Assembly: GCA_019096065.1 (NCBI GenBank)
Contig: JAGUCH010000001.1
Location: 4,092,001 to 4,156,000 of the forward strand
Length of the DNA stretch: 64,000 nucleotides
Direction: 5' to 3'
DNA from: Paracyclopina nana
Taxonomy: Eukaryota; Arthropoda; Copepoda; Cyclopoida; Cyclopettidae
Part shown: piece by piece, positions 22,044 to 36,746 of the stretch
How positions within the stretch are numbered: the first letter of the stretch is position 1
How the letters are laid out: the number at the start of each line of letters is the position of its first letter
Notes under the pieces: generated by a model
Seen by the model: the letters and a program-made list of their open reading frames with translations, nothing else
Databases searched by the model: none
Told to the model about the DNA's origin: nothing
Position numbers and translations under genes: made by a program

Positions 22044-25000
22044 ATGGAGTTAGCGCAGTTGGGGAAGATCTTGGCCATTTGTCTATTCCTGGGTGGCACT
22101 TGTCATTCCAGCGAAAACTTGACAGAAAATTCCCTTATGCCACATCCAGAGGAGTTGGAGCCGAGCCCCACTTTGATGTTTGTCGAGCCGATGAAGAATT
22201 ACAGCAAAGTTGCTGGCGAGAGCTTGAAAATCAGATGTGTCGTCCGAGGAGATCCTCCGGTGCAGAAATTCAAGTGGTTCAAAAACGAGGCCCCGCTCGC
22301 AGAGGAGCGTGGGAGAGTGAGAATCAGGTCGAAAACTGGCGCCGGTGAGGCCCAGTGGTCGAGGGTCCGGTTCCAGAACCTGGAAACCATGGACATGGGC
22401 TTCTACAAGTGCGAGGCCTCCAACGGAGTCGAGACGCTCCGGGGCGAAACTGTGATCAAGGTGCACCCAGGGAACAAGAGGAAGGGCACCTCGTATTGGT
22501 CGGATGATGACTACGACCCTGATGACTACGACTCGAAGCATCAAGACCATGGGCTGATTCCAGAGAGCTTTCCACTTGACCTAGATGCCAGCCTCGGCGA
22601 TGGAGCCATCTCTGGCCTGCCCTCGCACATCGAGTTCCAGGTAATTAATCCAACTTTTCGCACACACTTTTTACGCTCACAAACTGTTTTGCATTCTCGC
22701 AGGGCCGCGCGCCTGACGATTTTCACAATGGAAACAAGAAGACCATGGCAGCCACATCCAACCTGAATGGCGACTTGCCGAGCCTGAAGCCGAATGAAAG
22801 AGCAGGAAGATGTCAGCCCTATTCAGGCTCCGTTTGCCGAGAGCATTTGGGCACCAATTACATTTTTGTCAGCCAAGGCCTCACCCAGGACTACATTGAG
22901 CAAAAGTTGCAGGCGTCACTACAAGTGATTTCCAATTCTCCCGAGCTGTCAAAAGAGTGTGCCAAATATGCCATTCCAGCGATTTGCCTGTCCACTCTGC
23001 CCCTGTGTGACACTCAAACTCAAAAGCCACGAAAGGTAGGCTGCAGCTTATTGACAATGACTTTGAATTTCAATAAGTTCACCACTGTCACTCTGGAATG
23101 CTCATAGCCCGGGTGCTTATTTAACTTTTCATAATGCCTCTTTCCCTCCAGATATGTCGTGACGAATGCGAAGTCCTTGAGTATAAGCTCTGTCAGAAAG
23201 AGTTGGCCATTGCGAGGAGCCAGCCGATGATCAGCCACCAATTGGTCCTGCCAGATTGCCAAGAATTGCCAGTTATTGGCACTACCGACAACTACAACTG
23301 CGTTCGCTTGGGAATGCCTACCGTGACTCAATTGATCAAGCCTCACTCTTGCTTTAGAGATGACGGATCGGAGTACCGAGGGACAGTCTCGGTCACAAAA
23401 AGTGGGCTCACTTGCAAGCCCTGGCATCTGTCACTAGATGGCGATGGCTTCAATGCTGTCGAGCTGGTGGGAGGCCACAACTATTGCCGCAATCCTCAGC
23501 ACAATGGCAGAGAGGAGGACCAACCGTGGTGCTTTACAAACGACCCAAGGTACTAAAACCAGACATTTACAGGCAAAACATGACAAACGGGAGGGCAATT
23601 TTTCAATTTATCAGATCTCACAACGAGTGCCCACCACAGAGACAAATGGAATGCCGCGAGCTTTCTTGTCGCAACTCATATATGAGCATGTAGCTTTTGC
23701 CGTTTGTATGGACCGAATAAGGCAAACAATGATATAAAAAATTTGCATAGTTTGCCTAGATTGCCCAGTGGAAGTCAAGAATTCATGATGGGAATCTCGG
23801 TTAAATAATGTCTGTGTGGTGGCTGGCAGCAAATGAGAAGCATGTCAGGCCTGAGCAGAATTTGAATGCGGGAGATTGTTTGTACGAGGAAAAAACCCTG
23901 CTGACCAAACTTATTTCATTTCAGGCACCCGAAAGAGGTGTGTGGTGTTCCCAAGTGTACCGAGTTCAATTTATGGCTTTACATAGTGACTCCTGTGGCT
24001 GGGGCAGCCATCTTGGTCAGCATCATTTTGGTTCTCTGTTGTCTTCGGAGGAAGCACAAGAAACCTCTATCAACTATCAGTATGGGTGCGAGCAGTCCCA
24101 GATCGCTGATCACTCAGCCCTCTAATCATAACTACTCGGAAATGGAGATGAATGCACTCATCCCAAAGTGCCAGCCTCCACCTCCAAGGCCAAGGGCCAG
24201 AGAGTTTCCAATCACCAGTGTCAGGTTCAACCAAGAGCTGGGCGAAGGGGCCTTTGGCAAGGTTTACAGGGGAGAATTAGGTGGCATTGTTGGAGGATGC
24301 ACATCCGTAGTGGCCATCAAAACTTTGAGGCCGGGTGCAAATAGCCAGACAAAGCAAGATTTCCAGAATGAAATTGAAATGTGGATCGAGCTTCGACACC
24401 CAAACATTGTATGTCTACTGGGAACTGTGCTCAAAGATGATCCCCAGTGCATGATTTTTGAATACCTCAGTCAGGGTGATCTTCACGAGTTTCTTTTGTG
24501 CCATAGCCCCAAGTCGGATATCATGACGTCTGTGTCAGATGACGACATCACTGAGCGAATACTAGATCCAGCAGACATGTCTTTCATGGCCATTCAAATT
24601 GCTGCTGGCATGGAGTACCTATCAGGTCATCACTATGTGCACCGAGATCTTGCCACCAGAAATATTCTGGTGGGTGAGAATCTCACAGTGAAAATATCAG
24701 ACTTTGGTGTAGCCAGAGATAAATACAAGTCAGATTACTACCGAGTGCAAACTAAGTCATTGCTACCAGTGCGATGGATGCCAGCTGAGAGCATGCTGTA
24801 TGGAAAGTTCACCACAGAGTCAGATGTTTGGTCGTATGGCGTGCTCCTTTGGGAGATCTACAGCTATGGCCTCCAGCCATACTATGGCTACAGCAACCAA
24901 GAAGTCATCGAGATGATCCGAACTCGCCAGTTGCTGCCTTGTCCGGAGGACTGTCCTTCACGAATGTATGCTTTCATGGTTGAATGCTGGCATGAGGTTC

Positions 25001-25437
25001 CCAGCCGAAGGCCGAGTTTCTCTGAAATCCATGCCCGTCTCAGGCACTGGGAGGGGATGTCAGCAGGCTACCAAAGCACCAGTCACAGCATGTGCAATGC
25101 ATCTCAGCACAGTGGGTCTCAGCACTCCTCGACAGGACCCAGCAATAACACAGGCTCAACTAACCTGAGTCAGCACCACTTGTTGCATCAGCAAAACAAT
25201 GGAGGCTGTGTCAATGGTGGCTATTCTCAGCCCTTTGGTCACCTGTTGGGGAATCAAGGCGGCCCCCCACCCATTGGGATGGTGCAGATGGCCAACGGGC
25301 CGAAAGGAGGTCCACAAACGGTGTTGTTGGGCCCAAATCATGCTGGCTTTGGCTCTCACATTGGTCCCTTGGGCCATTCCAGCCTCAGCCAGTCAGGAGG
25401 ACAGGCTCAAAGCGTGGCATCCCTTCAGATGGTGTGA
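22044..25437 (+). CDS. Ror: ROR-family receptor tyrosine kinase (Ig-Fz-Kringle-TM-kinase)
   Basis: Single-pass plasma-membrane receptor of the ROR family, which binds Wnt5-type ligands through a Frizzled-like domain. Exons: 22044-22640, 22703-23035, 23152-23549, 23925-25437. The splices keep frame and give 946 residues. In order: signal peptide (about 1-23); an Ig C2 domain (Cys65, Trp78, the YKC motif with Cys123); a Frizzled cysteine-rich domain (about 232-360); a kringle with six cysteines (377, 398, 422, 437, 449, 454); a membrane helix (about 460-484); the kinase (about 542-818); and a Ser/Gln/Gly/Asn-rich tail. Kinase motifs are complete: GEGAFG at 549-554, VAIK with Lys575, HRD with Asp684, DFG with Asp702, and the ROR activation-loop YxxxYY (710, 714, 715). 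Vertebrate ROR1 and ROR2 have altered several of these, so this copy looks catalytically competent. The start is the first ATG ahead of a good signal peptide. Upstream noncoding exons are likely but not located. Confidence 0.96.
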
Positions 25438-35252: not shown

Positions 35253-36746
35253 TTAGTTCCAGTTGGTCGAACCTCCCCACTGGCCGGGTGTGGCCTCGGG
35301 TGCAGGGGCCTCGGAAGCCCAGTCGTTGGTCGCAACCTGGTTGGCCCAGTCCTCGGACACCTGGAACTTGGCTCCAGCAGGAGCAGGAGCTCCAAGGCCG
35401 GGGGCACCAAGACCACCAGGGGCGGGATCATTGGCCCAGTCAGGGTTCATGTCCTCGCCTCCCCAGGACTCCTCGATTTTGGCTCCGGACGCAGCAGCAG
35501 CCTGAGAAGCAGCTTGGGCTTGAGCCAAGGCCTCTTGGCGAGCTTGCTCCTCCTTTTCGGCTTCCTCGGGATCCCTGTAGAAGAACAAGTCGGGCATGAC
35601 CTCCCACGACAAGTCCCGAGAGATGGAGCCACGGAGCCGCAAGACCTCACGGGCCAAGAACCACCACATGAGACCAATGGACTTGTCACCCTTGTTGTTG
35701 CATGGGATGGCAATGTCAATGAAGGAGGTGGGCGAGTCAACGTTGCAGAAGGCGATGACTGGGATATTGGCATAAGAAGCCTCAGTCACGGGTTGATGGT
35801 CGGAGCGGGGGTCAGCAACGACCAACAAACGGGGCTCGCGGAAAGCAGCCTGGATCTGATTGGTGAAGGCGCCTACAATAACGAATACAATTAGTTTAAG
35901 TATCCAAAACCTCTACAAAAGTGCATCACTAAAGTTAGGTAAAAATGTCTCAAATGTTTTCGGCACATCTTTTACAATACATTGTAAGGATGCTTCCTAC
36001 AAAGAATTCAATCTTCTCCCCATTCAAATAATTTTGGCACTCCTTGACAATTATGGAAAAATCGTCGGAGCGTGGCGTTAGGAGGTTAAGCGTGAAAAAA
36101 AGTTGCTATACGCACCAGGAGTGTAGCGTCCAGCAATGGCCGTGGATCCGATGTAGCGAGCGAACTTGAGGACAGCTCGTTGACCGTATGGCCTTGATGA
36201 GACGACGAAGACGTCAGCGGGGTTTTCAATAGCAGCGATGGCCCTTGCGGCCAGCATCAGCTTCTCCCAAGTCTTCTTCAAGTTGATGATGTTGACTCCA
36301 TCCTGGCGCTTCTTGTAGATGTAGCTTTCCATCTGCACCTCGGAGTTCTCGGAACCGAGGTGGGTGGTAGCGGCCAACATCTTGGTAATATCGGCTTCCT
36401 ATGGAGTAGAAAGAAGTTGTTAGGAACACGAACGTAAAAATGACGAGAGCGAGTTTCGGAAATTTAAGATTGTTTCAAGGTTTTTCGGCACATCTAACCC
36501 CATAGGCTTGAAGTAGATGCTTCCTGTCTCGAAATTACTATGCTCCCCATTCAAAATTGAATATTTTGGCACTCCTTGGCGATCATGAAAAAATCTGCCG
36601 GAGCGTGGCGATAGGAGCGGCGTCATGTCGAATTTCGCGAAAAATGCGCAGAATTTCGGCATCGATTGCGGTAAAACTTATGCACGGGATGTTAGAGAAT
36701 GATTTCAACTTACTTGAGCCTTAAGAACTTCAAAACCTCCCGACAT
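35253..36746 (-). CDS. RpSA: 40S ribosomal protein SA (uS2, laminin-receptor homologue)
   Basis: Component of the small cytoplasmic ribosomal subunit, needed for 18S rRNA 3' processing and 40S assembly. Minus-strand exons: 36746-36714, 36398-36116, 35872-35253. Frames join exactly and give 311 residues (human RPSA is 295). It begins [11 protein letters not shown], like the vertebrate MSGGLDVLKM start, and has the family blocks [20 protein letters not shown] and [11 protein letters not shown]. The C-terminal tail carries the acidic Trp motifs of animal RpSA (ESWGGE, PDWAND, EDWANQ, NDWASE, GQWGG). The first intron follows codon 11. The introns (315 and 243 nt) are several times longer than the ~55-nt introns of neighbouring housekeeping genes and hold the candidate snoRNAs listed separately. 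Confidence 0.97.
35952..36085 (-). ncRNA. candidate intronic H/ACA snoRNA, copy 1
   Basis: About 134 nt inside the second RpSA intron, sense to the host. The 5' half folds as CACGCTCC GAC GATT - loop - AATT GTC AA GGAGTG (positions 36,074 down to 36,038), with an outer CTCC/GGAG pairing. A hinge with an ANANNA match (AGAAGA) follows. The 3' half has a perfect seven-pair inner stem (TTACAAT/ATTGTAA) and ends ACATTT, placing an ACA box three bases from the end. A related sequence with a compensatory pair change sits in the other intron. Vertebrate RPSA introns are known to host H/ACA snoRNAs (SNORA62/E2 and SNORA6), so the host is apt. The guide target is not determined. Confidence 0.45.
36468..36618 (-). 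ncRNA. candidate intronic H/ACA snoRNA, copy 2
   Basis: About 150 nt inside the first RpSA intron, sense to the host and clearly related to copy 1. Shared blocks are CGCCACGCTCCG, AAGGAGTGCCAAAAT, GAATGGGGAG, GGAAGCATC and AGATGTGCCGAAAA. The 5' stem is CACGCTCC GGC ... GCC AA GGAGTG (36,607 down to 36,570). The middle pair is G-C where copy 1 has A-U, which argues for conserved structure rather than mere duplication. The hinge has ATAGTA (ANANNA). The 3' end is less clear: an ACA lies at 36,473-36,471, allowing an AGG/CCT and TTTC/GAAA lower stem. Confidence 0.42.

Follow-up and report, generated by a model that had tools for sequence, protein, structure and literature searches.

Candidate SNORA65/snR34-type H/ACA snoRNAs in both introns of the Paracyclopina nana RpSA gene

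The definition of the H box (ANANNA), the proteins and the layout of H/ACA snoRNAs are described in PMC8096250. Of the 239 snoRNAs that Drosophila S2 cells express, 73 have ribosomal protein genes as their hosts (PMC13228274, a preprint). Cis-duplication of snoRNAs was observed in nematodes and platypus (PMC3412847), and 7.3% of the human H/ACA families with at least two expressed members have all of them within one host (PMC8178906). Chicken U65 is located in intron 4 of RPL12, with a 5' arm that guides 28S-3858 through 7+3 nt and a 3' arm that guides 28S-3912 through 6+5 nt; for the second of these sites snR34 is named in yeast (PMC2653536). In yeast, Psi2826 (E. coli Psi2457) was assigned to snR34, and the marks lost upon deletion of snR34, snR52 and snR67 include Psi2826 and Psi2880 (PMC11121408). 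Vertebrate RPSA hosts a different pair, SNORA62 and SNORA6; in chicken, E2 lies within intron 4 of the gene and ACA6 within intron 3 (PMC2653536). SNORA6 probably came from SNORA62 via cis-duplication (PMC4515611). H/ACA snoRNAs in the introns of ribosomal protein genes, and their duplication into an adjoining intron, are already known. For RpSA, searches of open-licence papers, from which subscription journals are mostly missing, turned up no description of a SNORA65-type snoRNA.

The window, meaning the whole 64-kb stretch of P. nana DNA that was analysed, is part of contig C1 of a 92-Mb genome in 10 contigs. All positions below are window positions unless a contig is given. The gene studied here was identified as RpSA because its exon 2 matches Pfam PF00318 and its exon 3 matches both PF00318 and PF16122, all above the cut-offs. 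The gene, its introns and the two candidates are as follows:

36746-36744 (start codon) to 35255-35253 (stop codon), minus strand: RpSA gene
36399..36713, minus strand: RpSA intron 1, GTAAGT...AG, 315 nt, from the sequence and a frame-keeping splice junction
35873..36115, minus strand: RpSA intron 2, GTGCGT...AG, 243 nt, from the sequence and a frame-keeping splice junction
36468..36620, minus strand: H/ACA snoRNA candidate, intron-1 copy, from the alignment, a fold with both basal stems and a weak SNORA65 match of 17.5 bits
35943..36087, minus strand: H/ACA snoRNA candidate, intron-2 copy, from the alignment and a weak SNORA65 match of 19.9 bits over 35943-36068; its 3' basal stem is weak

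An earlier model-made reading of the same DNA from its letters (the sequence-only reading) had proposed that the two introns carry a related pair of H/ACA snoRNAs. The intron lengths that it gave, 315 and 243 nt, were borne out by the frame-keeping splice junctions. Its comparison with introns of about 55 nt in neighbouring genes holds for the one intron that was measured, a 55-nt beta-tubulin intron in the window. The shared blocks that it quoted are minus-strand letters, as RpSA sits on the minus strand. Elsewhere in the window, an open frame at 23938-25437 resembles a receptor tyrosine kinase when its translation is judged by eye.

The homology of the two copies was observed directly. By alignment, an element of 145-153 nt is common to both introns; the ends of both candidates are approximate and were set by us, and the mature 3' end is a predicted one. 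The best local alignment between intron 1 and intron 2 scored 103, compared with a mean of 18.5 (sd 2.3) and a maximum of 32 for 2,000 dinucleotide-shuffled intron pairs. The shared blocks of the sequence-only reading were confirmed, and neither their order nor their orientation differs between the introns. As a DNA query against the genome, the intron-1 copy matched itself and the intron-2 copy only (73% identity). Two block patterns, one for each hairpin, were also searched against the genome and each matched exactly the two RpSA copies, while a reversed-control block pattern gave zero genome matches. Within the window, a covariance model built from both copies found the pair and one place at chance level (10.2 bits, E 2.6).

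We put at roughly 0.9 the probability that each RpSA intron encodes an H/ACA snoRNA of the SNORA65 (U65)/snR34 type, cis-duplicated and guiding two 28S sites, a reading drawn from the sequence. Following splicing, each intron would be trimmed by exonucleases down to an H/ACA core, and this core would assemble with dyskerin/Cbf5, Nop10, Nhp2 and Gar1, as expected from its class. Pseudouridylation would follow at two 28S uridines near the peptidyl transferase centre, with the 5' pocket acting on the equivalent of yeast 25S U2826 and the 3' pocket on the equivalent of U2880. We infer processing, RNP assembly and modification in this scheme. The two copies would be the result of a duplication between neighbouring introns of RpSA, for which direction and mechanism are likewise what we infer.

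On the minus strand, folding exceeded chance by a modest margin only. Its minimum energy was -42.6 kcal/mol for the intron-1 copy (z -2.02; 5 of 200 shuffles folded as well) and -31.8 kcal/mol for the intron-2 copy (z -1.65; 12 of 200). The plus strand gave no folding signal (z 0.13 and -0.10), and an element on that strand was ruled out for want of one. When the guides were kept unpaired, a canonical H/ACA fold that includes both basal stems formed in the intron-1 copy. Under the same constraint, the intron-2 copy retains its 5' hairpin and, in the 3' half, the apical stem, and its 3' basal stem is weak, at -1.9 kcal/mol compared to -6.5 kcal/mol in the intron-1 copy. The two-hairpin layout with hinge and tail is complete in the intron-1 copy and present with a weak 3' basal stem in the intron-2 copy. 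The compensatory change of an A-U to a G-C pair, which had been pointed out in the sequence-only reading, is real and is the sole such pair among 29 in the consensus fold. Covariation was rejected as proof, since two sequences make it too weak for this use.

The boxes were seen directly in both copies:

36536..36541, minus strand: H box AUAGUA (ANANNA), intron-1 copy
36012..36017, minus strand: H box AGAAGA (ANANNA), intron-2 copy, which overlaps the 5' basal stem at its foot
36471..36473, minus strand: ACA box, intron-1 copy, 16 nt past the first right-guide base
35946..35948, minus strand: ACA box, intron-2 copy, 16 nt past the first right-guide base

In H/ACA snoRNAs, the ACA lies 3 nt from the 3' end and about 14-16 nt from the pocket. 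Both copies here have their ACA 16 nt past the base that opens the 3' right pocket, with three nucleotides then left to the assumed end. Hinges of the ANANNA form had been proposed for both copies and were found in both; an ACA end had been claimed for the first copy and was found in that copy and in the second as well. ANANNA is a loose motif, with one or two further occurrences nearby in each copy, and the one chosen starts 29 nt (intron 1) or 21 nt (intron 2) past the start of the 5' right pocket. The extra distance in the intron-1 copy is a small hairpin within the right strand of its 5' pocket.

The geometry of the pockets and their complementarity to conserved 28S sequence are also direct observations, and they carry most of the weight. 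The guides are:

36605..36611, minus strand: 5' pocket left guide UCGCCAC, 7 pairs, intron-1 copy
36567..36570, minus strand: 5' pocket right guide GCCA, 4 pairs, intron-1 copy
36521..36525, minus strand: 3' pocket left guide AGGAA, 5 pairs, intron-1 copy
36485..36489, minus strand: 3' pocket right guide GCCGA, 5 pairs, intron-1 copy
36072..36077, minus strand: 5' pocket left guide CGCCAC, 6 pairs, intron-2 copy
36035..36038, minus strand: 5' pocket right guide GCCA, 4 pairs, intron-2 copy
35994..36000, minus strand: 3' pocket left guide GUAGGAA, 7 pairs, intron-2 copy
35960..35964, minus strand: 3' pocket right guide GCCGA, 5 pairs, intron-2 copy

The pockets were read from the folds and then compared with conserved 28S sequence. 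With G-U pairs allowed, the 5' pockets form 7+4 (intron 1) and 6+4 (intron 2) pairs with 28S AACUGGC[U]UGUGGC, the expected 5' target site being AACUGGCUUGUGGC, and the 3' pockets form 5+5 (intron 1) and 7+5 (intron 2) pairs with 28S UCGGC[U]CUUCCUA. The two target uridines are 54 nt apart in 28S. From this spacing, the order of the arms and the sequence context, we take the sites to be the equivalents of yeast 25S U2826 and U2880. Guides shuffled at constant composition equalled the four pocket scores at these sites in 5, 5, 8 and 12 per 200,000 trials, figures that are somewhat flattering because the pocket limits were set with the targets in mind. By chance, 1 to 4 of the 36,674 U in the window, both strands included, reach at least 10 pairs with a given pocket, and a single pocket therefore proves little. 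The guide evidence is weighty because two different pockets meet both sites known for one snoRNA. Together, the tests of guides, boxes and spacing give strong support to the proposal of an H/ACA snoRNA pair.

The conserved 28S sequence used matches one place in the genome, on contig C6, where 118 of 130 positions agree. The rDNA copy there is decayed (LSU 771.8 bits, SSU 715.6 bits, 5.8S 79.9 bits). It lies on the minus strand at G000:C6:6384500-6393500 and G000:C6:6393400-6397000 with widely spaced LSU landmarks. The 18S pieces lie apart from it, in an rDNA array end where contig C8 stops. Those pieces sit between long N runs, and the stretches read around 18S are N. In the guide search against the organism's 28S and 18S that the sequence-only reading had proposed, the 3' site of the decayed 28S proved to be intact. 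It is the best place for the 3' pockets among the 2,031 U of the 9-kb strand, with 12 and 10 pairs compared to 7 at the next best place. At the 5' site one base has changed there, and 6+1 and 7+1 pairs are left; because of this change, the only 3+3 place listed for the 5' pockets in the decayed 28S is elsewhere, with 6 pairs. A T-rich place beside the decayed SSU forms 10 and 9 pairs with the 3' pockets. Among the 651 U of the two 18S pieces legible on C8, none gives any pocket a 3+3 site. A pattern with both target sites intact had zero matches in the genome assembly, in which the array 28S is unreadable, and zero in the viral collection.

The same locus was also compared with Rfam, and no family reached its gathering score in the 64-kb window. 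A permissive scan, in which only the best of overlapping same-clan matches was kept, gave 7 matches at E up to 10. SNORA65 (RF00302) was the top match by bits for each copy, with 19.9 bits (E 0.51) for the intron-2 copy and 17.5 bits (E 1.8) for the intron-1 copy, both on the coding strand and both weak, far short of the RF00302 gathering score of 70 bits. The conserved letters in the Rfam alignment with SNORA65 are around AGGAA and UGUGCCGAA. In the intron-1 copy, a CDKN2B-AS_2 match of 17.3 bits (E 0.54) that overlaps its 5' end outranks SNORA65 by E-value. This match and those to SNORA9, snoR113, U4 and sR32 (E 0.54 to 3.2) are weak and fall far short of their thresholds, and they were taken as chance. 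A genome search with RF00302 at E 10, in which 45 of 2,570 candidates were scored, returned zero matches and missed the window's own copies too. Filing the pair as SNORA65-type is a matter of its guides, not of membership in the curated family.

A possible alternative, which we consider rather unlikely, is that the intron-1 copy alone is fully working, its intron-2 counterpart being either a duplicate in decay or an RNA that modifies through its 5' arm only. In favour of this are the weak 3' basal stem of the intron-2 copy, an H box that overlaps the 5' basal stem and a 3' half that is non-canonical in the unconstrained best fold over 145 nt. However, this copy retains both guides, its 3' duplex is the longer one (7+5 compared to 5+5), its ACA is at 16 nt, and folding over a shorter 143 nt gives both apical hairpins. 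The combination of a longer 3' left guide (7 compared to 5 pairs) with a weaker 3' basal stem hints at unequal activity. The intron-1 copy is the safer bet and is predicted to be more likely active than the intron-2 copy.

A mobile element, or an intronic duplication lacking any function as RNA, is a far less probable explanation of the repeats. Simple duplication can yield intron-to-intron repeats, and conservation in the guide columns does not significantly exceed that in the others: with 8 gap columns left out, 20 of 23 guide columns are alike between the copies compared with 88 of 122 other columns (3 and 34 differ, respectively, which is the expected direction; p = 0.10). On the other hand, the four pockets fit two known modified uridines and the box spacing is correct. 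The sequence-only reading had held that many genomic copies outside RpSA would make the element a transposon; searches of the 92-Mb genome turned up just the two in RpSA, and a transposon was ruled out by this copy number.

The idea that the pair is the counterpart of vertebrate SNORA62 and SNORA6, kept in RpSA since the common animal ancestor, draws on the shared host gene and on the probable cis-duplication in vertebrates, but this kinship, raised in the sequence-only reading, is very improbable and was rejected on the covariance scan, where neither RNA is among the 7 matches listed at E up to 10 (one per clan where matches overlap) and SNORA65 appears weakly and below threshold, and on the guides, which fit the SNORA65/snR34 sites and not the human 28S 3830 and 3832 of SNORA62 (PMC4515611).

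As a SNORA65/snR34-type pair, the RpSA copies resemble chicken U65, a relative of yeast snR34, as described in PMC2653536, in the order of arms to sites, in near-equal duplex lengths and in the 54-nt spacing. They share the H/ACA layout and, by sequence context, both 28S uridines with SNORA65/U65/snR34. Unlike these RNAs, they are two paralogous copies in adjacent introns, and the host is RpSA, in contrast to RPL12 for U65 in chicken. They also differ from SNORA65 in an extra small hairpin, most evident in the intron-1 copy, which is part of the right-hand strand of the 5' pocket, and have diverged from the family beyond the Rfam threshold. With SNORA62 (E2) and SNORA6 (ACA6), they have in common that two H/ACA snoRNAs occupy two introns of one gene, presumably after cis-duplication; those RNAs have other targets and no Rfam match listed here.

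Judged from sequence, a different guide would here have doubled independently in the gene that hosts SNORA62 and SNORA6 in vertebrates. We tentatively suggest, as an idea that is more doubtful than probable, that RpSA is a recurrent landing and doubling ground for H/ACA guides, with SNORA62 doubled in vertebrates and, independently, the unrelated SNORA65/snR34 guide here. The copies may also divide labour: the intron-2 copy, with its weaker 3' basal stem and longer 3' guide duplex, might modify sites near the peptidyl transferase centre with a different efficiency. Guide-based annotation reaches a snoRNA candidate that the Rfam model misses at threshold. The marks guided by SNORA65/snR34-type RNA are near the catalytic centre of the ribosome, and the guide appears to have been retained even though its host gene differs from that in chicken.
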